The translations under genes were made by a program, and so were the position numbers. Under the pieces are notes generated by a model that searched no databases, had not been told where the DNA came from, and saw only the letters and a list, made by a program, of their open reading frames with translations. From positions 1 through 64,000 of the forward strand of contig JAIKWY010000110.1 in the NCBI GenBank assembly GCA_024684395.1: a DNA stretch of 64,000 nucleotides, written 5' to 3'. Below, one piece after another: positions 40,604 to 64,000 of this stretch (the first letter of the stretch is position 1; every line of letters begins with the position of its first letter). This DNA comes from Oscillospiraceae bacterium. GTDB lineage: Bacteria > Bacillota > Clostridia > Oscillospirales > Ruminococcaceae.

Positions 40604-40755
40604 TCCTGCGGGATCTTTGAGGATCTGTATCAATTTGTCCGATGGACATGGATAACTGACTGACCGGTTCGTCGGAGCGTCGGGCTTTCCTGATGGGAAG
40701 CGCAGCTTCATGAAAAGGATGGTCGAAATTTTAAAAAGAAGGGTTGCGTGATACT

Positions 40756-42543
40756 GTGAGAATCGAATTTAAAGCCTATGGCGGAACAGGCTCTCTGGTC
40801 GGCAGATGCTTTCTGGCATTGCTGGCACTCAATGCCTGCGATAAGGTGTATTCGCCGGATGACAAGTGCGTCATCTACCAGATGGACTACGATGACGAGC
40901 CGCCGGGAGCTTCCGGGCAGAACGATGCCTACTACTTCAAGGATGTCTGCTTTGAGAACTACAAGAAGCTGCACGAGCGTGGGCTGCATTTTCTGGCTCC
41001 GATCGAAGTGGAACTCTCTCGTGTCACGCTCAAATCCGTCCGGGATTATGCCTACCCGAACGAGACGGAATACAGCCTGAACTCCCTGTTCTGCCGTGGC
41101 AAGAACAGCGGCGCGGTGCAGGAACTGCTCTCCGCTGCGTTCACAGCCGGTTCCGGCAGCAGCGAGCTGCGGCTCTCCAATGCGCACGGCTGCTATGGCG
41201 ACCTGGCAGTCAACGGCTTCATCAGCGAGCGCATCATCGAGACCAATGCCTTCAAGGAAATGCATGTGTATGATGATCTGAGAGCGAATCCGCAGGGGGC
41301 GATCGTGTTCTATGCCGGCTCTACCGACGGCGGTACAGCCAACACCATGATCGACAAGGATGTCCGCTCGCTCCTGCACTGCCTGAAGGGCGGCAATATC
41401 GCCGTGGATCATTCCCGTCCGTTCAAGCTCTACGGACTGCGTACAACGCCGTACAGCAAGTTTGAGCTTGTCGGTTCCGAGTCGCAGCTTGCCGTGGTAA
41501 GCTCGATCCTGCGGGATAAGTTCGAGATGTCCAAGGGCGTACTGGAAAATATCAATACGCAGAACGAACTTGCAGCCGGGAAACAAAATGCTGGTATCGA
41601 CGACTACAGCTATTACAACCTGAACGACGGTACTACGGATTACTGGCTCGACGGCCTGTTCATTGCGGGCAGCGATTCTCTTGATGTGACAGCATGGGAG
41701 GCGAAGAAGGACAACCAGTTCCATCCGACCCACTTTACCGAGCTGGCGCTTGCGATGCAGGCGATGGATGCGATCGCCAACCGTCTGCCGAATCTGCCGC
41801 AGAATGTGCCGTGCATCTATGGCTACAATGACGGCGGCAATGTGGACGGCAACCGTAATCCTGTTACGCTGCAGTCCTTCTTTGGTGACAGATCTGTTTC
41901 CTATGAATATGAGATCTATGACAGCCAGGCAGGCGGTGAAGGTGCATTTGATCTGGCAAAGTATGTCAGAGCCATCCTGCTGACGCTGGTCGCTGTCAAG
42001 AGCAGAATGGTCTCCGATTTCAGATACCCGAACAGTGCACCGGAATATGTCAGGGACATCTTCCGACACGCTGAAAACGACATGGATACAGTCTGCCCGC
42101 TGATCGCTGATGAACTGGAGAAGTTCCTGGAGGAGGCGAAGTTCATCGTCATGGCACTGTATGATGCGATGACCTATTCGACATTCGGCGCAGGTTCTTC
42201 CCCCATCGCACTGATGGAGGAGGAGATCAAGTACCTCTATTCCACCGATACGCTCAACAACACGATCAGCATGTCGGCGAATGATTCGCTGTCCATTGAT
42301 GACCAGGTACCCTTCTGCAAGGTCGAGCTGCGTGCCAAGACGGCTAATCCGCAGTTTTATGTGCTGGATATGATGCATACGTTCAACTATCACGATGGCG
42401 GTATGTTTAGCGGTAAGAAGAAAAAGCTCATAGGCGAGGAGCTGTATCTGAACTTTGGCGGCGGTGCTGATCCTCGTACAGCAGCGCTGATCGCCAATAA
42501 TATGATCCAGCGTACCTTTGAGACCTACCTCTATCTGATGTAA
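40756..42543 (+). CDS. Tubulin/FtsZ-superfamily-like protein (putative)
   Basis: N-terminal beta strand plus Gly loop FKAYGGTGSLVGRCFLALLAL, VIYQMDYDDE strand end, second Gly loop IVFYAGSTDGGTANTMIDKDVRSLL in tubulin-signature position. Confidence 0.5.
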   Translation: MRIEFKAYGGTGSLVGRCFLALLALNACDKVYSPDDKCVIYQMDYDDEPPGASGQNDAYYFKDVCFENYKKLHERGLHFLAPIEVELSRVTLKSVRDYAYPNETEYSLNSLFCRGKNSGAVQELLSAAFTAGSGSSELRLSNAHGCYGDLAVNGFISERIIETNAFKEMHVYDDLRANPQGAIVFYAGSTDGGTANTMIDKDVRSLLHCLKGGNIAVDHSRPFKLYGLRTTPYSKFELVGSESQLAVVSSILRDKFEMSKGVLENINTQNELAAGKQNAGIDDYSYYNLNDGTTDYWLDGLFIAGSDSLDVTAWEAKKDNQFHPTHFTELALAMQAMDAIANRLPNLPQNVPCIYGYNDGGNVDGNRNPVTLQSFFGDRSVSYEYEIYDSQAGGEGAFDLAKYVRAILLTLVAVKSRMVSDFRYPNSAPEYVRDIFRHAENDMDTVCPLIADELEKFLEEAKFIVMALYDAMTYSTFGAGSSPIALMEEEIKYLYSTDTLNNTISMSANDSLSIDDQVPFCKVELRAKTANPQFYVLDMMHTFNYHDGGMFSGKKKKLIGEELYLNFGGGADPRTAALIANNMIQRTFETYLYLM

Positions 42544-42609
42544 TTTGCATGACATCAGATAATACTTGTCATTCTAAATCAAGCTTCGGATGAAAGGAGT
42601 ACCTGAACT

Positions 42610-45600
42610 ATGAGCTTTACATTACCCGGCGCTGCAATGGCGCACCTCGGTACACAGCCCATCAAAATGGCTGACCTGAAGAGCAAAGTCGATGCTTGGG
42701 GCAAGGCTTACCGTGACGGTAAAAATGGAGCACCGACTTACAAATCCTGCAATAAGTCTGCGGCGTATTTCTATTTCCTCAAGATGAATATGTCCATGTT
42801 CAGTGCCGATGAGCAGACGGCGTTTTTATCGGATCCCGATGATCCGAAATTCAAGGACCACAGAAAGATCATGATCCTGCTTGCCAATATCCTGCTGCGG
42901 GATTACTGTGACCTGAAGATCGGCGCACGGCTCATTGACTACAGAACGGTCTGCGCTTATGACGGCGTACACAATGACCTGATCAATCTGGTCGAGGGCT
43001 GGGCAAAGGAGATCGACGATCAGGATTATGAGAAGCTGACCGAGATCTATATGCAGATCGATGGGGAGAAGTATCCCATCGCCTTCTATTCCACACAGCA
43101 TTTCGTGATCTTCCCGTTCAATACGATCAATTCCATCGTGCAGGATCGGATGATCGGCTGGGACGGCGCAAAAAAGGACTATACGATGGCTGCGCTCTTC
43201 AGAGATATTGCGGAGAGACCGATGAGCGACCGTGCGCTGTATGCGGCGCTCGTGCATCCGGATGCCGGACTGGGACATCCTGTTCTCGATACACTGGCTG
43301 ACTGGCTCCGGAACAACCGCAGTGTCACCCGTGCGGGCGGTGCTGCCTATCCGACAAGATTTGAATACATCCCGATCGACGATACGACCGCCACGCTGAC
43401 CAAGCTGCCGATCGCAAAGCTGCCCCCGATCCCCAAGGACAAATTCTCTGAGCAGCTCCTCATCATCCAGGCAAATACCAATGTCAAGAACGGCGAGTTC
43501 GGTCTTTGCCAGGTAGCGAACAACAGCATCGGCGTGATGGAGGCAGGTGCTCCGATGCACGCTGTGGTCGCTCCGCTCAGCAAGGAGCTCATCGAGAGCT
43601 TTTATGCACCGCAGGACGGCGCGAATATCAGCTTCATGGGCTGCACTGTCCTGAAAAACGGTCCGGACTACCATGTAACGATCACTCTGGATATCGACGG
43701 ATGCCCGACAGCGTTCAAAAAGGTCTATCTTCCGTCCGATGTCAAGAAGTGCAATAACTTCCCGCTGATCTCGCTCCTGACCAAGGGAAAGGACGAATCT
43801 ACGCCGGTTCGTCTGTACAGAACGGATTATGAAAAATCAGGCAGCTCGACTTCGCCGGTCTTCCTGGACGGTAAGAGCATCAAGCTCGGCGAAAGCGGTG
43901 ACAGCCGTGAGCTTTCTTTTAAGAATGGTGAGGGCGTCAGACAGGATCAGTTCTATTATTCCAGTGTCGGCTATCATGATCCGATCGCCGGAAAGAGCTA
44001 CTACTGCGGTTATCTGCTGTTTGAAAAGAGCGGTCCGCAGTCGCTGTACAGCAAGGCGCTGGCATCTATCGATACGGCTGTTATCATCGACGAGGAGAAC
44101 GAGATCGCTCAGATCGCCAAGGTCAACCGCCTCGATATGTCGGACGTGACTGCATACAATGTTTACAATGACCGCATCCTGTTCTTCAGCACCAACGGCC
44201 GTGATGATCTGGATAAGGCTATCCTCAACAGATGCTGGGGTACGCTCGGCAGCACGATCTTCTCGACCAACGACGGCAAATATGCACTGGCACCGTTCAG
44301 CAAGGAGTTTGCTGAGATGGTCGCAAACGGTGACGTAACGATCTCCTCCGCTCCGGCTCCGGTGCTCCAGAGCAGCGGTGTGGACTGGATCTTCTCGGTC
44401 GCATTTGATTTCAACGGCAAGCTGATGAAGACGGCACCCCATGTATACCATCAGGATGAGCAGTTCACGATGCCGAATCCGCCGTTCTTCTATGTTGTCA
44501 AGACCGTGGGCGGACAGTCTCTCACTGCCGGCTATGAGGTCATCAAGGTCGCCAACATGGGCACGAATGCGGTCAATAACACCGTGGATTCCAATGACCT
44601 GACCTTCAAGCTCGAGAACAAGGTCATCCAGACGAGCCTCTTCGTAACCCCCGGCGCCAATGCGTCGAATGTCTTCATCCACGCATACAACGGCAATGAC
44701 TATCTCGGTCAGATCACGCTGAATCTGAGCGATTATGCTCTGCCGAGCGGCTTCCATGCGCTCCTGGATGACCAGATGAGCTGCGCCGTTATCATCCTGA
44801 TCAAGGATAAGGGCATGAACCAGCCCAAGGAGATCATCACAGGTACGGTATTTGATGATAATCTGTTCCTGATCGTCAAGGAGCCGAACCGTGCGATCTA
44901 CACAGAGTACCAGGCATGGAGAAGAGATGACCTTGTTGTGGATATCGGCGGCATGACCTCCGAACAGGCAGAGGGCAAGGAGTACCAGGCTGTCTTCCCG
45001 TTCAGCCTCCGGATGCTCCAGAACATCAACAACGGCAGTATCCAGATGGTGCCTGACTCCACGAAGATCACCTTCAATGAGCTGGAAAAGCGCTATGAAG
45101 TATCAGTCTCCATCATGAACCCGAATGCGGCGAATACCTGCGTCGTTTTCAACATGAATTATAATCTGGGGCAGGGCAAGGTCGTGAAGTGCGACAATCT
45201 GCCGTTCGTGATCGCTGTGGAGGGCGGCCAGCAAAGAGGTCTTGCCCGCTTCAATAACGATATCCCTAATGTGATGCTGAACCACATCGACGGCTCGCAG
45301 CTGAACATTGAGGTCGTTGAGAACGGCGAGACAAAGCTCGAGGACGGCGGCAATATCGTTCCGATCAATGCAGATCAGGTCGTGCTGCGCCTTTCCACCA
45401 CCTCTTCGGCATTCGGCAATTCCCGTGTGAGCTGTCATATCCTCTACCAGGCAACGGCTCCCATCACGGACGGCGTGTTCTCGCTCCAGTCCGAGGAGAC
45501 CGGCGAGCAGCTCGTAATTGATTACGATGCCGACAAGCAGACCGTTACCAAGCTCGATGTCTTCACCGATTATGTGATCTTTACGATCCCGATGCTGAGA

Positions 45601-48384
45601 AACGGTGAGCCGCAGGTATTTGCAGGTGGTACACAGTGTACGCCCGCAACACCGCTTGGTGCCAATAAGGAGCCGGAGTCCCGTATCTATTCGATCCCTG
45701 TGACGATGAAATTCACAGATCTGATGGAGCGCCGCTATCGTGAGAACCGCGGCGATGTGCGGATCTCGGCTTACAGCAATGTCAAGTTCCAGAGCCGGAA
45801 GCCTGACGGCACGCTGTGCCAGTATGTGGTGAATGATTCGTATGATCTCTATGTAGAGATCAACATCCAGGGTCTCAATACCACATGCGGTCCTGCCAAG
45901 ATCAGCAAGATCTATCCGCGCGACAAGGTCATCGACTTTGTGGGCTATGAGCTGCCGACGCTGACGGTATTCCCGTATGTCAACTTTGTGGCAGATGATT
46001 CGTTCGGCGCCAACATGGCTGGCAAGCCCCTGTGGCAGAAGTATAATTACGCCAAGTTCACCAGCATGACCTTGACACCGGAAAAGGCAATGGAACCCCG
46101 TGAGCATGAAGCACTCGGTTCTCGTGTGGACTTCTGGGTGAACGGCAAGAAGATCATCTTCAAGAAGCGCAAGAGCAAGCTGCCGCAGCTGAGCACCGAA
46201 GAGAAGGAAATGAAGGTCGGTACTGTCAACGGCTGGGGACGCTATATCCATATGACCTATGACGGCTCGGCAGATGTCGCACCGGCACAGGCGATCGACA
46301 CCATCCTCGACAAGAAGGAATTTGGCTGTATCATCATGGATCTGCCGACTCCGGTCCCGGTTTCCGCCAATATGACCGCAACGGTCGGCGTGGACTTCGG
46401 TACCAGAAACTCCATCATCGCGCTGCAGTCCAACGGTATGGTCAGGACGATCTTCCCGTATCACGGCAACCGCGAGCTGCAGCAGGTCATCATCCCGAAC
46501 ATGTTCCATGACGAGTTCAATGAGCTGTCCAACTACTGCTATATCCCGCATTTCCCGGCTATCCCCGGTGTTCCGGGCGGTTCCGGCTGCGGCAAGTTCG
46601 CATCCTCTATCATGGTCTATGCCGGTGTGAGAGATCCGAATGAACGGATCCTGCCGTATGACCTGGGCTTTGTACCGAATGTACAGGGCAGCGTCCTGCG
46701 GAAGATCATGGACGGTATGGGCGGAGCAGGTACTGGCTGCATGGGCGATGATCTGGGCTTCTATACGGACCTTAAGGTCTCTACAGACGCCAGGGACAAG
46801 GATAAGGTCGATCTGATGCGCCGCAATGTCCGCACCTTCATCAAGAGCATCATGTTCCATACGGTGCTCAACAGCTTCCAGGCAGGCTGCGGCAACATCA
46901 ACATCCGCTTCTCCACGCCTTCCGACAGCTATGCCCGTGAACTGGGCAAGGTCTGGGAAGAGGCGCGGGAGTATATCATGGATTTCATCCCGGAGTGCGC
47001 ACACGGCAATATCCATGTCGGCGACTATGCGACCGAGGCAGCGGCGCTCTTTGAGGACCTCACGGTAAATATGCCCGGCGGTCTCGGCGGTATGCCCAAG
47101 TATTCGGCGATCGCTGACGGCGGTGACGGTACCTATGACTTCACCATCAACAAGTATGAGGGCGGCAAGCTCTCGACCCCGGCAGGCGGCGAGTTCTCGC
47201 TGCGGTATGCCGGTCAGCAGATCATGACAGATAGTGTCAATGCCTTCTATGATCATCTTGTTGCCAGAAACAACGGCTTCCACAATGCGAATGTCAGAAC
47301 GCAGTTCCGCAACATGTGGGACGTTGATCCGAGCGACAAGGATGCGGTGGCGACACTGACGGAAATGGTCGAGAACCTCTCCAGCTTCCGTGAAAAGAAG
47401 GGCACTGACCGTGAGATGGAAAAGACACTTGCACTGATGCTCGTGGAGCAGTTCGGTATCGACTACAGCAAGATCATTTCTTCGAATCCTACGTCGCTGG
47501 ATGATTATGTGAACCCTGAGTATCTGAACTTCGTCCGCATGATCCAGTACAAGTTCCTGTTCCTGTTCAATGTCCTCGGTGAGCAGATCCGCAAGACGAT
47601 CCGGCTCGACCAGGAAAACCAGAACAGCTTCAATGTATACCTCTTCGGCGGTACCTCGCAGGCGCTCCTGATCGCGGAGCCGCTGTGCCAGGGCAATATC
47701 AATGTGTTCAGCGGCAACGTTTCCAATATCCCGATGGCGATGTTCATTGATGCGATGCTGGATCTGCCCCGCAATGTACACGGTGAAAAGTATGGCATCA
47801 AGTTCCTTCCTGCACCGAACAATCTGAAGCTGGAGATCGCAAGAGGTCTGATCCAGATGCCGGCTGCTTCTCTTAAGAGCTCTCGCCATGCAAACAGCGG
47901 TGTGATGCCGAACCTGATGGCAGGCGCTGCTCCTGCTGCCGGCGCAGCAACGGATCCCTTTGGTGCAGCAGGCGGTCTTGCAGGCTTCGGCGTAGCGGGC
48001 GGTCTTGCAGGCTTTGGTGCCGGAACGGCGGCAACGGCAGATAACAATGCTGATCCGAGAGATGCCGTACAGCCGCAGACGATCGATGCTTTCATTAAGG
48101 ATCTCAAGGACATCCTGAACCAGCGTACTGTCAAGCTCGCACAGGGCGAGGTCTGCATCGACTACTTCCTGAAATTCCTGGATGAGAAGAATCAGCAGAT
48201 CACGCTCTCCAAGATCCTCGATGATAAGTATGTCAGAGCCGAGCTCTCCCAGAGCCTTACCACCATGTGGAACAGGGTCAAGGAGGAGAATCCGAATATT
48301 GATGACTCCAAGCTGCTGTACCATATCTATACGCTGAAGATGGTAAGTGCGGCGATCGAGGTCTTCCTCAGAAGCGGTAATTAA
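42610..48384 (+). CDS. Giant protein (1924 aa): three internal beta-domain repeats plus Hsp70/actin-type ATPase domain plus helical C-tail
   Basis: Phosphate-1 ATVGVDFGTRNSIIAL, phosphate-2 SAIADGGDGTYDFTI, adenosine motif NVYLFGGTSQALL; repeats around APLSKEL, APFSKEF, FPFSLRM. Confidence 0.75.
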   Translation: MSFTLPGAAMAHLGTQPIKMADLKSKVDAWGKAYRDGKNGAPTYKSCNKSAAYFYFLKMNMSMFSADEQTAFLSDPDDPKFKDHRKIMILLANILLRDYCDLKIGARLIDYRTVCAYDGVHNDLINLVEGWAKEIDDQDYEKLTEIYMQIDGEKYPIAFYSTQHFVIFPFNTINSIVQDRMIGWDGAKKDYTMAALFRDIAERPMSDRALYAALVHPDAGLGHPVLDTLADWLRNNRSVTRAGGAAYPTRFEYIPIDDTTATLTKLPIAKLPPIPKDKFSEQLLIIQANTNVKNGEFGLCQVANNSIGVMEAGAPMHAVVAPLSKELIESFYAPQDGANISFMGCTVLKNGPDYHVTITLDIDGCPTAFKKVYLPSDVKKCNNFPLISLLTKGKDESTPVRLYRTDYEKSGSSTSPVFLDGKSIKLGESGDSRELSFKNGEGVRQDQFYYSSVGYHDPIAGKSYYCGYLLFEKSGPQSLYSKALASIDTAVIIDEENEIAQIAKVNRLDMSDVTAYNVYNDRILFFSTNGRDDLDKAILNRCWGTLGSTIFSTNDGKYALAPFSKEFAEMVANGDVTISSAPAPVLQSSGVDWIFSVAFDFNGKLMKTAPHVYHQDEQFTMPNPPFFYVVKTVGGQSLTAGYEVIKVANMGTNAVNNTVDSNDLTFKLENKVIQTSLFVTPGANASNVFIHAYNGNDYLGQITLNLSDYALPSGFHALLDDQMSCAVIILIKDKGMNQPKEIITGTVFDDNLFLIVKEPNRAIYTEYQAWRRDDLVVDIGGMTSEQAEGKEYQAVFPFSLRMLQNINNGSIQMVPDSTKITFNELEKRYEVSVSIMNPNAANTCVVFNMNYNLGQGKVVKCDNLPFVIAVEGGQQRGLARFNNDIPNVMLNHIDGSQLNIEVVENGETKLEDGGNIVPINADQVVLRLSTTSSAFGNSRVSCHILYQATAPITDGVFSLQSEETGEQLVIDYDADKQTVTKLDVFTDYVIFTIPMLRNGEPQVFAGGTQCTPATPLGANKEPESRIYSIPVTMKFTDLMERRYRENRGDVRISAYSNVKFQSRKPDGTLCQYVVNDSYDLYVEINIQGLNTTCGPAKISKIYPRDKVIDFVGYELPTLTVFPYVNFVADDSFGANMAGKPLWQKYNYAKFTSMTLTPEKAMEPREHEALGSRVDFWVNGKKIIFKKRKSKLPQLSTEEKEMKVGTVNGWGRYIHMTYDGSADVAPAQAIDTILDKKEFGCIIMDLPTPVPVSANMTATVGVDFGTRNSIIALQSNGMVRTIFPYHGNRELQQVIIPNMFHDEFNELSNYCYIPHFPAIPGVPGGSGCGKFASSIMVYAGVRDPNERILPYDLGFVPNVQGSVLRKIMDGMGGAGTGCMGDDLGFYTDLKVSTDARDKDKVDLMRRNVRTFIKSIMFHTVLNSFQAGCGNINIRFSTPSDSYARELGKVWEEAREYIMDFIPECAHGNIHVGDYATEAAALFEDLTVNMPGGLGGMPKYSAIADGGDGTYDFTINKYEGGKLSTPAGGEFSLRYAGQQIMTDSVNAFYDHLVARNNGFHNANVRTQFRNMWDVDPSDKDAVATLTEMVENLSSFREKKGTDREMEKTLALMLVEQFGIDYSKIISSNPTSLDDYVNPEYLNFVRMIQYKFLFLFNVLGEQIRKTIRLDQENQNSFNVYLFGGTSQALLIAEPLCQGNINVFSGNVSNIPMAMFIDAMLDLPRNVHGEKYGIKFLPAPNNLKLEIARGLIQMPAASLKSSRHANSGVMPNLMAGAAPAAGAATDPFGAAGGLAGFGVAGGLAGFGAGTAATADNNADPRDAVQPQTIDAFIKDLKDILNQRTVKLAQGEVCIDYFLKFLDEKNQQITLSKILDDKYVRAELSQSLTTMWNRVKEENPNIDDSKLLYHIYTLKMVSAAIEVFLRSGN

Positions 48385-48386
48385 AA

Positions 48387-51922: not shown

Positions 51923-53335
51923 ATGGCGACAAATGAAAAAATGCTCTGCATCGGGAACGAAGAGATCCCGGCAAGCTGGGCGGCACCTGCCAGCTTTGCG
52001 CTGACAAAGGCAAATATGCCGTATCTGCTGATCGTAGCTGACCGCAAGGACGGGATGCTCGATATGATCCTTTACCGTAAGACCGGTCAGAATGCGGAGC
52101 TGGTGTCGCAGCGGCGGCTGCCGTTTTCGGTCAACCGGATGATCGCCGGAAAGATGACCGGTGCGCTGATCCAGCAGATCCAGCTGCGCCGTAAGATGGG
52201 GACCGGAACGGTGCAGAGCGTTCTGAAAGATTTTGAGAGCATTTTCCGCAGCAGCGATGCAAGACTGATGCATTTCAGAAAGCTGTCGGAGCTGCTGCTC
52301 CAGGAGAATAAGATCAGCTTTGCGGCGGTGACGGAGACGATTGAAAAGATCGTGGATTCCTGCGTATTTGATTTTGCATCGTATGCGCCGTTTTTCAGAA
52401 GACCGGCTGCTCAGAACACGATGCTGCATCTGTTCAACGGCATATTCATGGAATGGAACGGCATTATGCAGCTGATCCAGGACTATCTGACGGAGCAGAC
52501 GGTGTGGATGGAGGATGCGCATTGTGACCTCCATCTCGTGATGTGCGGTTCGCTGCTGAAGATGGCGTGTCTGGCGGAGCCGAACCTCGGGAATGTGACC
52601 AATCTGCAATTCTCGTCGTCCAGCGGACAGCTTCTGTATAAGATGAGCTATGAGATGATGAAAAATGAGAAGCACAAGTGCTTTAAGTTTTACATAACGG
52701 TGAACGCCGGACAGTATTCTGCTGTCATGCTGGATGCCTATGCCAAACGGGCAGCGCAGAACCATGCCGTGAAGGTCTCCGAGGTCTCGACGATACCTGT
52801 CTTTACCGACAGGATGCTTGCTTTGCCGGGAGATGCGGGCGTATATGCCGGCTATGTCGGCGGCAAGCTGCTGCCGCTCAACGGCATTCTGCTGCACCGG
52901 GATGAAGCGGGCAACAGACTGCTGACGGCACCGTTCTCGGAGGCATTCTCTCTGCTGATTGCCGGGGGCGCTGTCAAGTTCCAGATGCTGGAATGGACAA
53001 AGACGGACGACGGCTGGAGCATCGCTGTGAAGTATACCTACGGCGGCAGACAGTACAGCCTCCGCCCGAGGACCTACCGGGAGGATCAGATCACTGTGAT
53101 CGGGCGGTTCCCGGATCTGGTCATGTACAAGGTCTCCGGACACTCTGACATGTATCTGAGCTGTTGCAGCAACACGATCCGTGCGGAGCTGTACGGCGGC
53201 AAGAAGCAGGACGGACGGATCCTGCTCGATAGTGCAGAGGAGAGCACGTATCTCAGACTGTATCAGGGACAGAACGGGTTCCTGGGTCAGGTAGATTATC
53301 GGATCAAGAAGAAGGGAGGCGGACAGAATGGCTGA
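51923..53335 (+). CDS. Hypothetical protein sharing the beta repeat of the 1924-aa protein
   Basis: LTAPFSEAFSLLIAGGAVKFQ..YREDQITVIGRFPDLVMYKVSG..STYLRLYQGQNGFLGQVDY matches the second repeat of 42610..48384. Confidence 0.7.
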   Translation: MATNEKMLCIGNEEIPASWAAPASFALTKANMPYLLIVADRKDGMLDMILYRKTGQNAELVSQRRLPFSVNRMIAGKMTGALIQQIQLRRKMGTGTVQSVLKDFESIFRSSDARLMHFRKLSELLLQENKISFAAVTETIEKIVDSCVFDFASYAPFFRRPAAQNTMLHLFNGIFMEWNGIMQLIQDYLTEQTVWMEDAHCDLHLVMCGSLLKMACLAEPNLGNVTNLQFSSSSGQLLYKMSYEMMKNEKHKCFKFYITVNAGQYSAVMLDAYAKRAAQNHAVKVSEVSTIPVFTDRMLALPGDAGVYAGYVGGKLLPLNGILLHRDEAGNRLLTAPFSEAFSLLIAGGAVKFQMLEWTKTDDGWSIAVKYTYGGRQYSLRPRTYREDQITVIGRFPDLVMYKVSGHSDMYLSCCSNTIRAELYGGKKQDGRILLDSAEESTYLRLYQGQNGFLGQVDYRIKKKGGGQNG

Positions 53336-54419
53336 TTTCTTCTCACTGGGCGGATTCAACATCCCGCCGGAAATGATCCGACCATCCGAAGCTCCGCAGC
53401 CGGCGCCAGCCGATCCGGAGCCTGCTCCGGCATCCGCAGATCCTGTAGCAGAAGCGCCCGCAGAACCGGCGCCTGCACCGGCAGAGCCTGCATTCACGGG
53501 TCTCGGCGGCTTTTCCATCCCTGCGGATGCGATCAAGCAGCCGGAGCCAGTCGCAGAAGCGCCCGCAGAACCGGCACCTGTACCGGCAGAGCCTGCATTC
53601 ACGGGTCTCGGCGGCTTTTCCATCCCTGCGGATGCGATCAAGCAGCCGGAGCCTGTGGCGGAAGAACCCGCAGAACCGGCGCCTGCACCGGCAGAGCCGG
53701 CGCCTGCTCCGACGATCCTGAAAAAGGAAAAACCGGAGCCTGAGCCTGTACTGCCTGATCTTACGCCGGAAGAACCGGAGGAGCTGGATGACGATCTGTT
53801 TGCGGCACCGGAGGATGCGGAGCAGCACAGCATGTTTGACGATATGCAGATCAGCTTTGCCGATGCGGAGCAGCCGTTCCAGGCACCTGAACCTGCGGAG
53901 AGCATCCAGTCCGAAGCAGAAACGGTGGACGAGGACGAATTTACCGCCCCGGCTGCGGCATCGAAAGCGGTATTTGATCCGTGGTACGGTGCGGAGGAGA
54001 AGAGCATTGAGATCTATGATCCGGATATGCTCGAAGCGCAGCTCCCGGCGCAGCTGAGTTACTGTACCGTGCTGAGAAATCCCGATGACAAGAGCCGTGA
54101 TGCGTCGTGGGTCGAAGCCTGTGAGAAGCTGTATCCTGCTTCTGAGGAAGAGATGCTGAAGGCGGTCAGGGCATGTGTTGCCGTGAAGGAAAGCGTATTC
54201 AGCGGTCCGAAGGTCATTCTGATGAACAAGAGCTGGACGGCGGCAGAGATCCTTGAAGTGCCTGATATCCAGAGCTATCTCCGGCATAGTGCAAAGAAGC
54301 TCTGGGACGAGATGCTGACGATGTGCGAAGGAACAGAACCGGCAGAATGGGTCAGAGATGTCTGGCTGATGCGGCTGGTGGAGCGTGCGGTGGATTATTT
54401 CACGATCAGCTCAAACTGA
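53328..54419 (+). CDS. Pro/Ala/Glu-rich adaptor-like protein with 3 LGGFxIP motifs and a C-terminal helical tail shared with the giant proteins
   Basis: FFSLGGFNIPPEMI, FTGLGGFSIPADAIKQPEP x2; tail ILEVPDIQSYLRHSAKKLWDEM..VWLMRLVERAVDYF; overlaps the previous gene by 8 nt. Confidence 0.75.
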   Translation: MADFFSLGGFNIPPEMIRPSEAPQPAPADPEPAPASADPVAEAPAEPAPAPAEPAFTGLGGFSIPADAIKQPEPVAEAPAEPAPVPAEPAFTGLGGFSIPADAIKQPEPVAEEPAEPAPAPAEPAPAPTILKKEKPEPEPVLPDLTPEEPEELDDDLFAAPEDAEQHSMFDDMQISFADAEQPFQAPEPAESIQSEAETVDEDEFTAPAAASKAVFDPWYGAEEKSIEIYDPDMLEAQLPAQLSYCTVLRNPDDKSRDASWVEACEKLYPASEEEMLKAVRACVAVKESVFSGPKVILMNKSWTAAEILEVPDIQSYLRHSAKKLWDEMLTMCEGTEPAEWVRDVWLMRLVERAVDYFTISSN

Positions 54420-54450
54420 ATGAATATGCTTGGCAGGAGGATCGATAACA

Positions 54451-56019
54451 ATGATCATATCAAATGAAATGGACGGATTGCTGCTGTTGGAAGGATCGGA
54501 GGATGCCGGTCAGTCTTCCACAGCTGCCGGGAATACGAGCGTTTCTGTTGCTGATCTGGATAACATGACGGCGATCGCCGATCTGAAAGGCAGTGAAGGC
54601 GGCGCACGGCTGTTCTATGACGGGAAGGGCAATATCTACGGTGTCAGGCTCGATGCGGAACAGAACGTGATCGAACAGGGCGGCAAGATCGACCTGATCA
54701 CGCTCAAAAGCGGTCTGGATCAGGTGGATGAAAATACGGAGCTCAGCGTGAAAATGGAAGGCAATACCATTGTCGTGAGCAGATGGACGGACGACCGTGA
54801 AACGCTCATCAGCGGCGACCAGCTCGGTCTCAACGGCAACATCACCGTTGCCGAGGCACCGGCATCTTCCCAGACATCTGCTGCCGACGAGGCTTCGCAG
54901 GAGGATGGCGAGACTGCACCGGAAGAGACCGATGAAGTCACAGAAGCTGAACCTGCCGAGACGAAGCCGGAGACTGAGGCAGCCGAGGAAGAGGAGCAAG
55001 GTGCGGTGCTGACGATCGGCGCAGAGTCCGCCGAGGAGGAGACCGATGCTGCGATCATTGCGACATGGGCAACGGTCACCACAGAGCCGGCTGTGAAGCC
55101 TTCGGGCGGGAACGGCGTTATGATCTGGGCGATCGGTGCGACCGTCGCAGCTGCGATCGCCATTGCGGGCTGTGTGCTGCTCTTCAAGAAGTCAGCCGAC
55201 AATGAGAAGACCAAGAAGCTGAAGGATACCGAGCTGAAGGCGCTGCAGCGCAGTGTGGACGACAAGACCACCGCATTCAGCAAGGGACAGGAGCGCATCC
55301 GTGAGCTGGAGACACAGCTTGCAGAGGCGAACGAGAAGATCAATGCGCTGCGGGATGAGGCGAATACGTCTGCACAGGTGATCGCAGACGAGCGTCAGAA
55401 GCTGGAACAGCTGCCGACCGAGGAGGATCTGCATACAGCCAGATCCAAGGCGGAGGAGCTCCAGCAGCGCTATGACGAGCTCTATATCCGAGCCCGTGAG
55501 CTGCACCGTGAGAACGAGCAGTATGCTGCCCGGATCCGGGAACTGGAGCAGGGCGGAGCGGCTGCGGCAGGCATTGCAAAGGCTGCGGCACCGGCGGCGG
55601 AGCCTGCACCGGCTGAGACGCCTGAGTCATCCGTGGCATCTTCGGGTGCTGATGCGATACTGATCAGCACATCTGTGGCAGAGCTGGAGAAGTATCCGGA
55701 TCCTGTCTTTGCGGCACCGACAAGCTCGATGGTATCCGATACGAAGACGCTGAACAAGGCGCCCTTCCGCAGAGCACAGCTCGTCATCATCGGCGGCAAG
55801 GCGTACCTGAACCCGCACTTCTTCCGTGGGCTGGGCAGCGGCATGGAGAGCTATGCCAACCTCTCCGGGCTCGACAGCGTCTTTGAGACGGACGGTCTCA
55901 CCAGCAATGCGATGAAGTACCGGCTGAGTGCGCTTACACCGGCAGAAGTCAGCTATGATGCGGCTTCCGATACCTACCATGTGGATAAGCCGGGCAAAAT
56001 GGTACTCCACATCGGCTGA
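54451..56019 (+). CDS. Membrane coiled-coil protein with NPxxFR C-terminal domain
   Basis: Acidic N-region, TM MIWAIGATVAAAIAIAGCVLLF, coiled coil, C-domain GGKAYLNPHFFRGLG..YRLSALTPAEV. Confidence 0.75.
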   Translation: MIISNEMDGLLLLEGSEDAGQSSTAAGNTSVSVADLDNMTAIADLKGSEGGARLFYDGKGNIYGVRLDAEQNVIEQGGKIDLITLKSGLDQVDENTELSVKMEGNTIVVSRWTDDRETLISGDQLGLNGNITVAEAPASSQTSAADEASQEDGETAPEETDEVTEAEPAETKPETEAAEEEEQGAVLTIGAESAEEETDAAIIATWATVTTEPAVKPSGGNGVMIWAIGATVAAAIAIAGCVLLFKKSADNEKTKKLKDTELKALQRSVDDKTTAFSKGQERIRELETQLAEANEKINALRDEANTSAQVIADERQKLEQLPTEEDLHTARSKAEELQQRYDELYIRARELHRENEQYAARIRELEQGGAAAAGIAKAAAPAAEPAPAETPESSVASSGADAILISTSVAELEKYPDPVFAAPTSSMVSDTKTLNKAPFRRAQLVIIGGKAYLNPHFFRGLGSGMESYANLSGLDSVFETDGLTSNAMKYRLSALTPAEVSYDAASDTYHVDKPGKMVLHIG

Positions 56020-56322
56020 CGGCGATCTATACTGTATCAGACAACAGCATTTGCTTCGGACGGGCGTGAGAGCCTGTCCGGGGCGGATGCAGAGGGACGT
56101 GAACGTTTGGAGACATGGCAGACAAAGCGCTGCCGGATGTGAATATCTGCCTTTGAAAGGCAGCAGAACGGACAACAAGCGAGAAAATGAACAGGAAAAT
56201 GACAGGACGCGCCTGCGTTCTGTGTATATAGCAAACATCGTCTGCGAGGAGCAGACACATCACTGACAAAGCATTGAAACTGAATGAGCAGCAGGACATT
56301 ACTGCTGCAGGAGGAGGAAATT

Positions 56323-58257: not shown

Positions 58258-58308
58258 CAGAATGCCTGCCGGCGGCAGGCGGAAAACTGATGGAATGAGG
58301 GTGTGTGC

Positions 58309-59607
58309 ATGAATACGGTCACGATCATAGCGATCATTCTTCTGGTATTGGCATTTCTGGCTTGTATCCTGATGGTTTACAGCATCAGAGGCTACCATGA
58401 AAAATTCAAGGAAATGAGCAAACGGAACCAGATGCTCGCAAAGAAGTGTTCTCTTGTGGAGCAGCAGCTGGAGGTGGAGCGGCAGCGGAAAAGCCCGATT
58501 ACGGGCCGCTCCGATTCCGCCGAGCTGCAGGAGCTGCGCCGCCAGATCGCCACGCTGACCCGCAAGGGCGAAGAGGCGGAGCGGATCCAGCTTGAATACA
58601 ACAAGTGCAGGGAACGCTGCCGCCGTCTTGAAGCACAGCTCGAGGCGCAGCAGGATGCCGAGACGGCACCGAGCCAGGCAATGCAGGCACTGGAGGAAGA
58701 GCTTGACCAGGTCAAGTCCCAGTACGGACAGCTCCTGGAGGAGTATGAGCAGCTCCAGCAGACGATCGGCAACGAAAAGGCTGTCGTGGTGGATCAGGCA
58801 TCCCTCTCGAATGAGCTGGAGCGTGTCAAGGCGGCATATGCACGGCTCCGTGAGGAGCACGAGCAGCTCCAGCAGACGATCGGCGACGACAAGGCTGCCG
58901 TATTGGAAAATGCAGCACTTTCGGACGAACTGACCCGCATCAAGGAAGCTTACGCCGAGCTGCTTCGTGAGAAGAATGAGCTGGAGGAATCGCTCGCCGG
59001 CGGTGACGGCGAGGGCAGCGAAGAGCTGACGGCGGAGCTGAACCGTGTGAAACATGCCTATGCGGAGCAGCTCCAGGAGCAGAACCGCCTGAGAGAACTC
59101 CTCGAACGTGCAAGAGTCGAGCTCGTTGCGCTGCGCGGTAAGCTGCAGGAGAGCGAGAGCGCCAACGAGGAGCTCACCGCCAGACTCCAGGCTGCTGAAC
59201 AGGCATCCGCCGGCGCAGCATCCAGACAGAGCGGGAGCGTCGCACAGGACAAGTATCTTGCCCTGACGCTCGATCCCGAGCAGCTCGAAACAGCCGGAAG
59301 GATCCGCTTCCTGAACGTGCTATCGATGCTGGACGGCAGCATCAAGCTGTCCGCTTCGACCAACATCCGTCTTTCCGAGCTTGCGATGCTGCAGGACGGC
59401 AAGGTGATCCCGAATCCGTATTTCTACAGACGTTTCGGCACAGACGGTGAACTTGGCAGGGACATCCAGAAGATCCGTCAGGTGATGGAGTTCGCAGAGC
59501 CGGACGCATCCCGCAGATACCGGCTGACAGCGCTGCTGCCTGCTGAGGTAGAAGAGACAAACGGTACCTACAGACTGGTACAGAAGGGCGAACTGAAGCT
59601 CGGTTAA
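58309..59607 (+). CDS. N-terminally membrane-anchored coiled-coil protein with NPxxFR-type C-terminal domain
   Basis: TM TIIAIILLVLAFLACILMVYSI, coiled coil with internal EEYEQLQQTIGNEKA / EEHEQLQQTIGDDKA repeats, C-domain DGKVIPNPYFYRRFG..YRLTALLPAEV. Confidence 0.75.
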   Translation: MNTVTIIAIILLVLAFLACILMVYSIRGYHEKFKEMSKRNQMLAKKCSLVEQQLEVERQRKSPITGRSDSAELQELRRQIATLTRKGEEAERIQLEYNKCRERCRRLEAQLEAQQDAETAPSQAMQALEEELDQVKSQYGQLLEEYEQLQQTIGNEKAVVVDQASLSNELERVKAAYARLREEHEQLQQTIGDDKAAVLENAALSDELTRIKEAYAELLREKNELEESLAGGDGEGSEELTAELNRVKHAYAEQLQEQNRLRELLERARVELVALRGKLQESESANEELTARLQAAEQASAGAASRQSGSVAQDKYLALTLDPEQLETAGRIRFLNVLSMLDGSIKLSASTNIRLSELAMLQDGKVIPNPYFYRRFGTDGELGRDIQKIRQVMEFAEPDASRRYRLTALLPAEVEETNGTYRLVQKGELKLG

Positions 59608-59634
59608 GCTGGCAAAAGGAAAGGAAGAAGCAGA

Positions 59635-61338
59635 ATGGAAGACCTGTATGAACGGGTATACAGATATGCATCAGAGGACGCTGAAGGCGCATGGGGCTAT
59701 GACTGGCGCCCGAAGACCTACGAACCGACAGATTTTGGCGGCATCGCTGTTTCGACGAATGATATGGACGAGCGCCGGGTCTATGTGTTTGAGTGCATCT
59801 ACCGGAAAAAGGGAGATGTCCCCGGTGAGGCAGAGGAGGCAAAGATGCTTGCCGAGAAGGAAGCGCTTGCCGACTGCATCCGTTCACTGCATAAGGAACT
59901 TTCGGAATACACCTATCCCGTGGATTACTGCGCAGTCAAGCGTATCGTGAGTGGCGATGAACGTCTCGGCTATGATTTCGTGCTGCGTCAGAAGCCGTAT
60001 ATCACGCTGACAGAGTATCTGAACCAGCCGGAGATGGCAGCGTTCCGTGACCAGCTGCTGAACGGCACCGATGAGGAAGCCGAGAAGGTTCGCCATGATT
60101 TCACGACCCGTCTGCTCCGGCATATGGTGCTCGGTCTGAAAGACATCTACCGGGTCGGCAGTGTGCATGGACATATTGATCCGGATGCCGTGTGGCTCGA
60201 AAAGGCGGAGCAGAAGAAAGAGGGCTTCCGTCTCAGCCCGCCCGGGTATGGATTTTTCCTCGTCTCCCGCGAGGAAAACCGTGAGACGATCGACGAATAT
60301 GCAGCCCCGGAGCTGTGTCTGGATCCGGAGCAGGCATTCGATCTGCAAACAGATCTGTATGCCGTCGGGCTGGTGATCTACCGCTATCTGAACAGCGGAA
60401 AAGCGCCGTTCGCACTGCCACAGATCACTGCGGCGGACGAGCACAAGCGCCGCCGTGCCGGTGATACCGAGATCCCGGCGCCGAGATTCGGCACGAGCAT
60501 CATGAAGTACATCGTCCGCAAGCTCCTTGCCTATGAGCGGGATGTGCGCTACAGCGATTTTGCAGAGCTGGAGAGCGATATCCGGAAGCTGGGCAACAAG
60601 GTGGCGGACTATGATCCGATGTCCGTGGAGACCATCAGCCATGATAGAGCCAAGGCGCTCCAGCGTACCAAGGAGGACAATATCGCCCGCAGCAAGCAGT
60701 TCATCCAGGAGCTGGAAGGCATCCTGAAGGAGCTGGATATCGACGAAGAGGTCATCAAGGAGGAGCTCGGCAAGAAGGGCGCACAGCGCCACAAGCTCCA
60801 GGATCAGCTGACACGCATCGAGGAGGGCAGAAAGCTCATCCATGAGGACATCGCCAAGGCGCAGGCGGATATCGAGAACCCGCCGAGCGTACCGCTTCCC
60901 CAGATCCGTTCCCGTGTCAAGACCAACTATGTGCAGCCGATGTCTGCCACGAAGGATGAACGGGACATTGCGGAGGCAGAGGAAGAACAGCGCCGCCTGA
61001 AAGAGAAGGAGGAGCGTGACCAGCTCGCTGCGCAGCAGCAGGAAGCGCAGGCAGCCCGTGACCAGGCTGCGGCGGAACAGAAACAGCGTGCCGAGGAGCA
61101 GGCGGAAAGAGATGCACAGGCGAAAAAAGAGAAAGAGGAAGAGCTCAGACAAAAGATCGCACAGGGGCGTGAGAACCGCAAGGGCGCCATCTGGTGGACG
61201 GTCGTGGGCGTTCTTTCGGCGGCTGCACTGGTGCTGACCTTTGTGGTGCTGCATATGCTGGAGGATATCTCAGCCTATTCGGACAAGCTCAGCGCTCATG
61301 CTGCCGCAGAGATCAGCATCACAGAGACTGAACTATAA
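59635..61338 (+). CDS. Ser/Thr-kinase-fold pseudokinase with coiled coil and C-terminal TM
   Basis: VGSVHGHIDPDAVWL in place of HRDLKPxN, GYGF in place of DFG, EYAAPE and DLYAVGLVIYRYL retained; TM GAIWWTVVGVLSAAALVLTFVVL. Confidence 0.7.
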   Translation: MEDLYERVYRYASEDAEGAWGYDWRPKTYEPTDFGGIAVSTNDMDERRVYVFECIYRKKGDVPGEAEEAKMLAEKEALADCIRSLHKELSEYTYPVDYCAVKRIVSGDERLGYDFVLRQKPYITLTEYLNQPEMAAFRDQLLNGTDEEAEKVRHDFTTRLLRHMVLGLKDIYRVGSVHGHIDPDAVWLEKAEQKKEGFRLSPPGYGFFLVSREENRETIDEYAAPELCLDPEQAFDLQTDLYAVGLVIYRYLNSGKAPFALPQITAADEHKRRRAGDTEIPAPRFGTSIMKYIVRKLLAYERDVRYSDFAELESDIRKLGNKVADYDPMSVETISHDRAKALQRTKEDNIARSKQFIQELEGILKELDIDEEVIKEELGKKGAQRHKLQDQLTRIEEGRKLIHEDIAKAQADIENPPSVPLPQIRSRVKTNYVQPMSATKDERDIAEAEEEQRRLKEKEERDQLAAQQQEAQAARDQAAAEQKQRAEEQAERDAQAKKEKEEELRQKIAQGRENRKGAIWWTVVGVLSAAALVLTFVVLHMLEDISAYSDKLSAHAAAEISITETEL

Positions 61339-61410
61339 TAATCGGAAAACAGAGGGGTGCATCAGCCGCACCCCGTTTCCATATACCGGCTCACCGGAAT
61401 GGAGGGATGT

Positions 61411-62667
61411 ATGATGAAAAGCTGTAAAAAACTGGCTGCGCTGGCGGCTGTTCTGGCATTGCTGCTGACCGGCTGCGGTGCCGAACGTGTCACGGATGAG
61501 GAGTGGCTGGGGATCATGGAACAGGAGATCATCCGGCGTGACGGAAAGCTCCCCACGCCGAAGCCTGTTACGGAGACCCCCGTCACAACGGAGCCTTACC
61601 TGGTACAGACAGAACCGGAAGTGACCGAGACCGAGCCGGAACTGCCTGTCATGACAGAGGCACCGCCTGCAACGGAGCTGCATGTGACGGCGCCGGACGG
61701 ATCCGACGTCTACACGCAGCTCTGCACGGCACTGGAGCAGTTTGACAACACCATCACCGTCACCGGCAATTCTGTCGGCGATGAGATCGACCCCGCCTAT
61801 AACCGGGTCGCCTGGGAGCGCCCGGATCTGTTCTGGGTCGCAGGGTATTCTTCCACGTATCTGCCAAAGCAGGGCACGGTGGAGATCACGACGATCGACG
61901 ATCTGTCCCCGGATCAGCTTTCTGTCATGTACAACGAGCTGATGAACAAGGCGAAGGACATCGCTGCACAGGCACAGGCGTATCCGACCGATTACGAGAA
62001 GATCCTTTTTGTGCATGATTATATCATCGACCATGCGCAGTATGATTTCGAGGGGATGGCGTCCGATGAGTATGGTCTGTGGCAGACGGCATACGGTGCC
62101 CTGGTGCAGGGCGATGCGGTCTGCGAGGGCTATGCAGACGGCTTCCAGCTCGTGATGCAGCAGCTCGGCATCCCATGCGGTGTGTGCTCCGGACAAACAG
62201 AGGACAGCTCGCACGCATGGAACTGGGTCAGCCTGGGCGGCACCTATTACTGGATCGACGTGACATGGGACGATCCTTCTTCGGAGGATTCCGATGAGCA
62301 ATGCCTGTCGCACAAGTATTTCCTCTTCAATGACGAGCTCCTGCGCCGTTCGAGAACGATCGACGACGAGGGCTATTTCATCCCGACATGCACGGCAATG
62401 ACAGATAATTACTACATCCGGAACAACAGCTATCTTGAACACTATGCCTTTGAGGAGATCGACGGCAGACTGACCTTGGCATCTGCCAAGGATCGTTCGA
62501 TCGAGGTCATGTTCAGCACGGCAGAGGAGCTACAGGCTGCCATGACGGATCTGATCGACAACGGACGAATCTGGGATGCTTCCGTTTTCAAGGGCGGCGG
62601 AGGCAGCTATGTTTATTCCTATGATGATAATATGTATACGCTGATGCTGGTGTATACACTTTCCTGA
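61411..62667 (+). CDS. Lipoprotein with transglutaminase-like (papain-fold) domain
   Basis: Lipobox LLLTGC; Cys-His-Asp context DAVCEGYADGFQLVMQQLGI..SSHAWNWV..YYWIDVTWDD. Confidence 0.85.
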   Translation: MMKSCKKLAALAAVLALLLTGCGAERVTDEEWLGIMEQEIIRRDGKLPTPKPVTETPVTTEPYLVQTEPEVTETEPELPVMTEAPPATELHVTAPDGSDVYTQLCTALEQFDNTITVTGNSVGDEIDPAYNRVAWERPDLFWVAGYSSTYLPKQGTVEITTIDDLSPDQLSVMYNELMNKAKDIAAQAQAYPTDYEKILFVHDYIIDHAQYDFEGMASDEYGLWQTAYGALVQGDAVCEGYADGFQLVMQQLGIPCGVCSGQTEDSSHAWNWVSLGGTYYWIDVTWDDPSSEDSDEQCLSHKYFLFNDELLRRSRTIDDEGYFIPTCTAMTDNYYIRNNSYLEHYAFEEIDGRLTLASAKDRSIEVMFSTAEELQAAMTDLIDNGRIWDASVFKGGGGSYVYSYDDNMYTLMLVYTLS

Positions 62668-62701
62668 GCAAACTCTATCCCACCCCACGAGGAGGATCAC
62701 T

Positions 62702-64000
62702 ATGGATAAGAACCTGATCTTTACACTGGAAGCAGATTCCGGCTGGATCCTGAAGCACCGCAGCGACGAAGAGCTGCCGGTCAAGCGCATCGCTGCGCTG
62801 CTGCAATCCAAGCTGGAAGCAAGCATCCAGGACATCACTCTGACGCACTGTCGTGGCACCATCCAGACAGATGACGAGGAAGCAGCGGCAAAGGCGATCT
62901 TCGAGATCGTATCGAGCCTGTTCCCCGAGGAAGAGGGGAAGGGCACCTTCACGCTGACGGTCAACGAATCCGAGACGACCGAGGAAGCCGATGACGAGGA
63001 CGAGGAGCCGGTGTCCGGCAAGGAGCTGCCCGTCATGGAGCGGATCGAAGCGCTGGTCGGCGTGCCGGAGTTCCAGGATCTGGCAGAGGAATGCCGCCGG
63101 GTTGCGCCGGTGCTGCGCAAGAACAACGCCGTGGATACCTTCACGAGCCGCAGCTATCTGCTCGCTGTGAATGACGGCTACGGGCTCAGCACTCTGCTGG
63201 TGCTGTTTGCCGATCTCATCGAGGAGCTGGAGCTCTACAGCTTTGCTGCCAACGGACGCATCGTCGAGGTGCGCATCCCGGCGCCCAATCCCAAGGGCGA
63301 TGACCCGTTCTCACAGGCGCTCACGCTGCTGGACAGAGGCGCCGGCAGGGGACGGCTCATCTGCATCGACATCTCCGAATGGATGGGCAAGACGGCGGAG
63401 AAGGAGTTCCGGGATTTCCTGCGGGAGCTGGAATTTCACACGGGCGAGAACATCCTGTTCTTCCGGGTGCCTTTTGTCGAAAATAACGTTTTGGAGGGGC
63501 TGTACCGTGATCTGAACGACCAGCTCTATATCCGGAAGCTCTCGATCATCCCGTTCGGCAATGCGGAGCTGGAGACCGTGGCGGACAGAATGATCCGCAA
63601 GAAGGGCTTCACCATGCAGGCGGATGCCTGGGAGGTATTCCGGGAGCGCCTTGCCGAGGAGAAGAACGACGGCAGATTCTACGGCATCAACACCGTCCGC
63701 AAGGTCGTGTGCGAGATGCTGTACCGGAAGCAGCTCAAGAACGCCATCGACGGCGTGGATGACACGCTCGTCAAGGGCGAGGAGATCCTTTCGCTCATTG
63801 CCAATCCGGATACGATGGAGCGCACCGGCATGGAGATGCTCGATGCACTGGTCGGCATGGACGAGGTGAGAAAGCAGCTGCTTGCCATCATCGCCCAGAT
63901 CGAAGCCGCACTCGAGGACAAGGAGCTCCAGACGCCCTGCATCCACATGCGCTTCGTCGGGAATCCCGGCACCGGCAAGACGACCGTTGCCCGCATCCTC
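62702..64000 (+). CDS. AAA+ ATPase (CbxX/CfqX-like), truncated by window end, preceded by a degenerate P-loop region
   Basis: Open frame to the window end; MRFVGNPGTGKTTVARIL Walker A; earlier SYLLAVNDGYGLSTLLVLFADL. Confidence 0.8.
   Translation, partial: MDKNLIFTLEADSGWILKHRSDEELPVKRIAALLQSKLEASIQDITLTHCRGTIQTDDEEAAAKAIFEIVSSLFPEEEGKGTFTLTVNESETTEEADDEDEEPVSGKELPVMERIEALVGVPEFQDLAEECRRVAPVLRKNNAVDTFTSRSYLLAVNDGYGLSTLLVLFADLIEELELYSFAANGRIVEVRIPAPNPKGDDPFSQALTLLDRGAGRGRLICIDISEWMGKTAEKEFRDFLRELEFHTGENILFFRVPFVENNVLEGLYRDLNDQLYIRKLSIIPFGNAELETVADRMIRKKGFTMQADAWEVFRERLAEEKNDGRFYGINTVRKVVCEMLYRKQLKNAIDGVDDTLVKGEEILSLIANPDTMERTGMEMLDALVGMDEVRKQLLAIIAQIEAALEDKELQTPCIHMRFVGNPGTGKTTVARIL

Follow-up and report, generated by a model that had tools for sequence, protein, structure and literature searches.

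FtsZ and FtsA represent the best-known pairing of the tubulin and actin folds. Two classes of system that involve other tubulin-like proteins have been predicted. Makarova and Koonin (2010, PMC2875224) proposed a membrane-remodelling machine centred on FtsZl1, together with von Willebrand factor A (vWA) proteins, kinases and a GTPase, and Hsp70 is not mentioned in the main text of that study. Kaur et al. (2020, PMC7159879) predicted a set of conflict systems with DO-GTPases, part of which include tubulin and part HSP70; these two components are combined in one passage of the paper and presented as non-overlapping themes in another, and the systems are described as nearly absent in cyanobacteria. 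The locus considered here lies in the first 64,000 nucleotides (the window, G000:C91:1-64000) of a contig from a member of the Ruminococcaceae and encodes a tubulin-like protein (P0001) directly followed by a giant Hsp70/actin-like protein (P0002). With a probability of roughly 60%, the operon can be regarded as an elaborated member of a sparse membrane system that would consist of a vWA-like lipoprotein, small membrane proteins, the tubulin-like and Hsp70/actin-like pair, and coiled-coil proteins. To our knowledge, neither the FtsZ-like/vWA nor the tubulin/HSP70 predicted class has been put to an experimental test.

The resemblance to the described systems is partial. As in the FtsZl1/vWA neighbourhoods (PMC2875224), a tubulin-superfamily protein is found beside vWA-like, kinase-like, membrane and coiled-coil proteins, with a patchy distribution and distinct from cell division. 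However, FtsZl1 includes a coiled coil of its own as well as a helical C-terminal domain, and a GTPase usually accompanies it, whereas the tubulin-like proteins described here span 465-599 residues, the coiled coils are encoded by separate genes, and an Hsp70/actin-like protein always comes next. Similarly, the DO-GTPase systems (PMC7159879) share tubulin and HSP70 components, vWA proteins, a membrane location and mobile neighbourhoods, and in two distant relatives of the locus (G151 and G1264) a DO-GTPase gene adjoins the core. In contrast, no DO-GTPase or GAP1 is detectable in the window, cyanobacterial and Prevotella cassettes, the tubulin and Hsp70-like genes are adjacent instead of alternative, the core does occur in cyanobacteria, and the Hsp70-like protein is large, non-canonical and without a Pfam HSP70 match. 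With FtsZ and FtsA the likeness is one of working principle, a tubulin fold and an actin-superfamily ATPase at the membrane, and in the cyanobacterial proteins the second phosphate motif is matched best by Pfam FtsA; yet there is no membership by sequence, a sensor lipoprotein and coiled coils are additional, and FtsA-type proteins are relatives at the superfamily level only. On sequence grounds, the window system is an elaborated, DO-GTPase-free relative of the two predicted classes, set apart from them as far as the text of the papers shows. A preliminary description of the locus had recognised no named system in it, which does not wholly hold, as related operons had been predicted earlier (PMC2875224, PMC7159879). 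Among open-licence papers, the literature on SrfB-type, pseudokinase-tubulin and Zorya-tubulin systems offered nothing relevant.

A core cassette recurs in distant genomes

A search with a profile built from the Hsp70-like protein retrieved a distant relative in another genus of the family (G151, E=3.2e-5). Its gene comes immediately behind a tubulin-like gene, and genes for a membrane protein and DO-GTPase2 come next. The G151 tubulin-like protein in turn matched a protein encoded on a Gloeothece plasmid (E=4e-19), as well as Picosynechococcus plasmids and Prevotella sp. oral taxon 299, on whose record the occurrence in Bacteroidota rests. Further searches added G1264, G1370, the near-identical contigs L076/L077 and contig L079, the L076/L077 and L079 contigs coming from a viral-contig collection, with phage tail genes confirmed for L079. 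In the nine distant loci, the tubulin-like gene is directly followed by an Hsp70-like gene of 1044-1158 codons and comes after genes for a small membrane protein and for a lipoprotein-like one (adjacent but inverted in Gloeothece), while the downstream membrane or coiled-coil proteins mostly end in a common C-terminal domain. The order of vWA-like lipoprotein, small membrane protein, tubulin-like protein, Hsp70/actin-like protein and membrane/coiled-coil proteins is therefore nearly fixed. Five cassettes are plasmid-borne, four in cyanobacteria of the Picosynechococcus group and one in Gloeothece. Other Bacillota also have the cassette, in two cases next to a DO-GTPase gene. The core of G1264 is placed beside DO-GTPase2 by its near-identity to G151, and the gene after this GTPase encodes a protein with a weak GAP1-M match. 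The phage genome collection gave no match, nor did the viral collection when searched with the window-type tubulin.

The neighbourhoods of some of these cassettes are distinctive. A full five-gene set (lipoprotein, small membrane protein, tubulin-like, Hsp70-like, membrane coiled coil) is present at L079:815-8116, where it adjoins a DNA methyltransferase and phage tail/baseplate genes and looks like prophage cargo. At L076:12532-14902, weakly ZorA- and ZorB-like genes follow the cassette in place of the coiled-coil genes, a possible link to MotAB-type motors; no gene of this kind, as known from Zorya, is present in the window operon. Upstream of the Prevotella cassette and on the opposite strand, McrBC-type restriction genes are found (L053:2192-5000).

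The relation of the window proteins to this core was evaluated with profiles built from the distant loci only and run against about 1,100 open reading frames (ORFs). The lipoprotein profile, drawn from 8 loci, matched the window lipoprotein (36310) at E=2.3e-8, with the first unrelated ORF at 0.18, and the profile of the common C-terminal domain recovered two of the coiled-coil proteins, P0007 (0.00096) and P0006 (0.019), with noise from 0.39. In an all-against-all hhalign comparison of component families, the matching pairs reached 99.1% for the Hsp70-like protein, 96.4% for the lipoprotein, 93.7% for the tubulin and 59.6% for the C-terminal domain (E=9e-5, moderate support), as opposed to at most 4.9% for mismatched pairs, and one-sided profiles gave the same picture position by position. 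At the level of sequence profiles, these comparisons show homology to the distant cassettes for four of the five core components. In the window as in the distant loci, the tubulin-like gene stands directly before the Hsp70/actin-like gene, both being homologous to the distant pair, with a homologous lipoprotein upstream and, except in L076, coiled coils with a common C-terminal domain downstream. A chance juxtaposition of genes is rejected, because the order and the components recur in other phyla.

The tubulin-like and Hsp70/actin-like proteins

P0001 carries YGGTGS close to its N-terminus and YAGSTDGGTANT in its central part, both invariant or nearly so across five orthologues, which agrees with the GGTGS and GSTDGGTA loops reported in the preliminary description. 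The two glycine-rich loops occur in the order proper to the tubulin/FtsZ superfamily, and homology to its members is found as well: the comparison with the distant family (93.7%) has a profile-profile E of 1.8e-7, the orthologue in G204 matches the distant tubulin profile at 2e-5, and the top 18 matches of the profile of the distant GTPase part consist exclusively of nine distant members, five window-clade proteins and four Pfam Tubulin_2 proteins. The Gloeothece protein scores 40.8 bits with Pfam Tubulin_2 against a cut-off of 27, and the members from G151, Prevotella and L076 give sub-threshold Tubulin or Tubulin_2 matches. P0001 itself has no Pfam match and so stays below the Tubulin_2/FtsZl1 cut-off, and when only the window tubulin was compared with four Tubulin_2 proteins by hhalign, the match was not significant; significance arose only once the distant cassettes were known. 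The tubulin-like assignment made in the preliminary description thus stands on the profile-profile match and on one relative above the Tubulin_2 cut-off.

P0002 retains both phosphate motifs of the actin/Hsp70 ATPase superfamily, VGVDFGTRNS and DGGDGTYDFT, and the family profile finds other members of the superfamily. Indeed, the distant Hsp70-like profile matches P0002 at 3.9e-19 and P0003 at 6.5e-9, with MreB, FtsA-like and DnaK proteins between 4e-9 and 3e-6. In many genomes, the matches of the combined profile are confined to the regions of positions 556-594 and 771-845, where the two phosphate motifs lie, and eight such ORFs that were inspected start like DnaK, MreB or FtsA-type proteins. 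Foldseek placed Hsp70 ATPase domains first for the P0002 model, with probabilities mostly above 0.9 and no E-value below 0.001. Canonical Hsp70 is a different matter, as P0002 and P0003 are missed by PF00012 in their own genome and by Pfam; PDB sequence searches with both window profiles (tubulin-like and Hsp70-like) returned nothing. In P0003 the motifs read FGVDIGARTT and DGGDRSYDIS, with conserved positions altered in both, and this protein is probably a pseudo-ATPase. The two large proteins with Hsp70/actin motifs were rightly noted in the preliminary description, as the family profile and the Foldseek ranking (of a low-confidence model) indicate, and so was the presence of two nucleotide-binding superfamilies in one locus, for which the tubulin profile-profile match and the Hsp70 family profile speak.

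The neighbours of P0002 share parts with it to different degrees. P0004 had been taken for a smaller relative: it has a beta module in common with P0002 (aligning to residues 552-637, E=2.6e-7), but no Hsp70 domain can be demonstrated. Likewise, three modules had been proposed to be shared between neighbouring genes, and this applies to P0002 and P0003 (47%), to the beta module and to the C-terminal domain of the coiled-coil proteins, while the tail of P0005 is only weakly like those of P0002 and P0003 (E=0.06).

Operon layout and conservation

The host genome amounts to 4.2 Mb over 225 contigs, and the contig of the window runs on to 122,891. The host is a rumen cellulose degrader and, because its genome has at least 149 dockerin matches, a cellulosome-bearing, Ruminococcus-like one. 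Fifteen plus-strand genes follow one another from 36310 to 64672 (Table 1), with gaps of 6, 11, 17, 140, 66, 2, 173, -8, 10, 264, 45, 27, 18 and 34 bases in order from 36310. Eleven of the plus-strand ORFs lie between 40744 and 64672, the final one extending beyond the window end, so that the count of at least ten closely spaced genes given earlier is confirmed; the genes are real, but the operon starts further upstream than had been described, at 36310 or perhaps at 35384. None of P0001-P0005 matches a Pfam or NCBIfam family above cut-off. Long antisense ORFs were rejected as genes, the plus-strand reading being more conserved wherever both strands align.

Table 1. Genes of the operon and the adjoining surface-protein gene, with window coordinates and the basis of each assignment
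Feature	Coordinates	Strand	Basis
Secreted surface protein, C-terminal membrane segment and KKKD tail	35384..36136	+	In all five window-clade loci compared
Lipoprotein, 579 aa, homologue of distant vWA-like lipoproteins	36310..38049	+	Profile E=2.3e-8; hhalign 96.4%; lipobox
Membrane-anchored GH3 (NagZ-like) glycosidase	38056..39405	+	Pfam Glyco_hydro_3 E=3e-73; in all five window-clade loci
Small protein, about four membrane segments	39417..39992	+	Position and membrane segments
Small protein, about three membrane segments	40010..40603	+	Position and membrane segments
P0001, tubulin-like, 599 aa, GGTGS and GSTDGGTA loops	40744..42543	+	hhalign 93.7% to distant tubulin-like family
P0002, giant; N-terminal beta modules, C-terminal Hsp70/actin-type ATPase	42610..48384	+	Profile E=3.9e-19; hhalign 99.1%
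P0003, duplicate of the C-terminal 60% of P0002	48387..51749	+	47% identity; absent from G204
P0004, beta module of P0002	51923..53335	+	E=2.6e-7; orthologue in G204 and G215
P0005, Pro-rich adaptor, conserved C-terminal domain	53328..54419	+	C-terminus kept in G204, E=2e-20
P0006, membrane protein, coiled coil, common C-terminal domain	54430..56019	+	E=0.019 to distant C-terminal domains
P0007, coiled coil, common C-terminal domain, no membrane segment	56284..58257	+	E=0.00096 to distant C-terminal domains
P0008, N-terminal membrane anchor, coiled coil, common C-terminal domain	58303..59607	+	
P0009, pseudokinase, charged linker, C-terminal membrane segment (523-541)	59635..61338	+	HGHIDP, no DFG
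P0010, transglutaminase-like lipoprotein	61357..62667	+	Transglut_core E=4e-10; same operon, not found in G204
CbbX/SpoVK-type AAA+	62702..64000, on to contig 64672	+	Same operon, not found in G204

Among the genomes searched (one per species, mostly sampled), the operon was found in at least five others, and the tubulin-like gene is present in 4/38 genus, 2/198 family and 1/394 order members, its own genome counted. A scan of the genome collection gave four public contigs, three of them identical to contigs matched within the genus. As far as the contigs go, the window clade has the same order of surface protein, lipoprotein (36310), GH3 (38056), small membrane proteins, tubulin-like and giant Hsp70-like protein; this synteny, now seen in five window-clade loci, had been proposed as a check on the locus. 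P0004, the coiled coils and the pseudokinases then follow in the window genome, in G204 and in the frameshifted copy of G027, the Pro-rich adaptor also being clear in G204, while the loci of G215, G214 and L016 stop before the downstream half. G204 has three tandem pseudokinases and no P0003. The G027 copy (L025, G027:C50) belongs to another genus of the family and is split into many ORFs by frame changes.

Downstream and upstream components

P0006, P0007 and P0008 share one C-terminal domain, and the membrane segments of P0006 and P0008 agree with the membrane-linked coiled coils of the preliminary description. Its transmembrane pseudokinase is found as well: in P0009, HGHIDP replaces HRD, DFG is absent and a membrane segment is present. 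The HRD and DFG motifs of an active kinase are lacking in P0009 as in its three paralogues in G204, and the pseudokinases read HGHI(D/S/N)P. By reading, a membrane segment in the third G204 pseudokinase (G204:C24:88549-90699, at the ends of L021/L022) leads into an extracytoplasmic part that is C-type-lectin-like (WEEAQAECKARGGHLATVHS). Judging by the motifs of its proteins, the window system seems to have a single probable ATPase, along with a possible GTPase and two or more enzyme folds that are inactive.

Pfam and NCBIfam bear out the earlier identification of kinase-like, transglutaminase and AAA+ genes. In particular, the full-length AAA+ protein combines AAA (E=4e-19) with AAA_lid_6, and its nearest models are SpoVK and CbbX. 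Neither P0010 nor the AAA+ protein has a counterpart in G204, the sole other locus read well past the pseudokinases, and their membership is therefore unproven; the earlier proposal of the AAA+ protein as a remodeller of the machine does not carry over to the conserved set.

At the other end, it is uncertain whether the surface protein at 35384 is part of the machine. The small membrane proteins occupy the place between the lipoprotein and the tubulin-like gene, as two copies together with the inserted GH3. Further upstream, the window holds a cluster of cohesin/dockerin proteins (22024-32448), including a multi-cohesin scaffoldin of 1763 residues and a dockerin-bearing, xylanase-like protein, followed by a single protein (32652-35054) that joins a GH25 lysozyme-like domain, a dockerin-like segment and a GH3 domain closely related to the operon GH3 (38056). 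Downstream of the operon, a secreted protein of 1207 residues with about ten repeats is encoded (L009:3200-6823, contig 67200-70823).

Proposed mechanism and alternative explanations

The system is most likely a membrane-anchored, nucleotide-driven assembly switch. The lipoprotein would sense or bind an envelope component outside the membrane, and its state would be relayed through the small membrane proteins, upon which the tubulin-like protein might form an assembly that depends on nucleotide and lies on the cytoplasmic side of the membrane. The Hsp70/actin-like ATPase could then load, stabilise or dismantle this assembly, and the coiled coils, mostly membrane-anchored, would tether it to the membrane through their common domain. 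The extra proteins of the window lineage (P0003, P0004, P0005 and the pseudokinase) are likely to serve as docking or sensing subunits. More broadly, and tentatively, at a little short of even odds, an unnamed mobile membrane system may combine tubulin and actin/Hsp70 NTPases with a vWA-like lipoprotein sensor, be carried across Bacillota, Cyanobacteriota and Bacteroidota by plasmids and prophages, and have reached about fifteen genes in Ruminococcus, including a pseudokinase and a pseudo-ATPase.

Several observations weigh against these proposals. The vWA label of the lipoproteins is a motif reading and not a Pfam match: MIDAS-like (metal ion-dependent adhesion site) motifs are DGSGS in Gloeothece, DASGS in NIES-970 and variants elsewhere, the DxSxS motif is lost in the window lipoprotein (36310), and Pfam vWA matched no lipoprotein tested. 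The homology of the small membrane proteins (39417, 40010) to their distant counterparts was not significant by profile or hhalign. In the tubulin-like protein, the central loop reads DGGTAN in the window clade as compared with FGGTGA in distant members; with this conserved glycine lost from P0001, the protein is not certain to bind GTP or to assemble. The window P0001 alone matches the distant profile weakly (E=0.005 to 0.09). AlphaFold2 on the tubulin-like alignment (5 sequences) gave a pLDDT (predicted local distance difference test score) of 50 and a model with which Foldseek returned nothing usable, and the P0002 model is also of low confidence (pLDDT 49.8).

Among the alternatives, a role in defence fares best and is a serious possibility, although still below an even chance. 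According to this explanation, phage damage or entry would be sensed at the membrane and the tubulin/Hsp70 pair would form an activated assembly that triggers an effector, a scheme compatible with the assembly switch and different in its purpose. The sparse distribution is consistent with it, as are the small cassettes on plasmids or beside phage tail/baseplate genes (L079), McrBC (Prevotella), ZorA/ZorB-like genes (L076) and DO-GTPase2 (G151, G1264), and related systems have been predicted to act in conflict (PMC7159879). However, no effector, nuclease or defence model was recognised in the window operon, where a defence-model search of the proteins gave coiled-coil and kinase-type matches only, and the flanks kept in three genomes together with the internal glycosidase give the impression of an envelope function that was inherited vertically.

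This last point leads to a second, rather unlikely explanation, a Ruminococcus machine for envelope or surface organisation that would, for instance, place wall enzymes or surface proteins and possibly aid cellulosome display. Besides the shared flanks in three genomes, it can draw on the GH3 within the operon and the linked surface protein in all five loci, the GH3-like ORF downstream of the G1370 cassette, the adjoining scaffoldin and GH25-GH3 genes, and the vWA-like and transglutaminase lipoproteins. Cohesins, however, occur in 37/38 genus members as against 4 with the locus, a co-occurrence by which a strict cellulosome link is rejected, and in G204 the cohesin matches and the locus are on different contigs. 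The defence and envelope roles may both be true, in different branches.

It is improbable that the operon simply belongs to the DO-GTPase/GAP1 class (Kaur et al., 2020) and has lost its GTPase module or has it encoded elsewhere. The G151 core adjoining DO-GTPase2, the G1264 GTPase gene followed by the weak GAP1-M match, and the mention of tubulin and HSP70 components in that study (PMC7159879) would suit such membership, but neither the seventeen window proteins nor the Prevotella and cyanobacterial cassette genes that were scanned have a DO-GTPase or GAP1 match, and the class is reported as nearly absent in cyanobacteria, with tubulin and HSP70 non-overlapping (PMC7159879). Finally, a type VII-like secretion system, suggested earlier by analogy of the membrane pseudokinase with EssB and of the AAA+ protein (EccA being among its weaker NCBIfam matches) with EccA, is rejected as hardly credible, as no FtsK/EssC-type ATPase or WXG100 protein is recognised by Pfam, NCBIfam or ORF reading in the operon or directly downstream, an absence already remarked for the locus itself, and the AAA+ is not conserved in G204.

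Biological significance

Tubulin and actin folds are rarely known as a working pair outside cell division. If the assembly switch proposed here is true, a five-gene mobile cassette with an outward sensor would represent a tractable new nucleotide-driven membrane assembly, and the cyanobacterial plasmid cassettes, because they occur in cultured strains, would provide an experimental handle on the predictions of 2010 and 2020. The Ruminococcus version, in turn, would be a case in which such a device has been extended by using inactive enzymes as building blocks.

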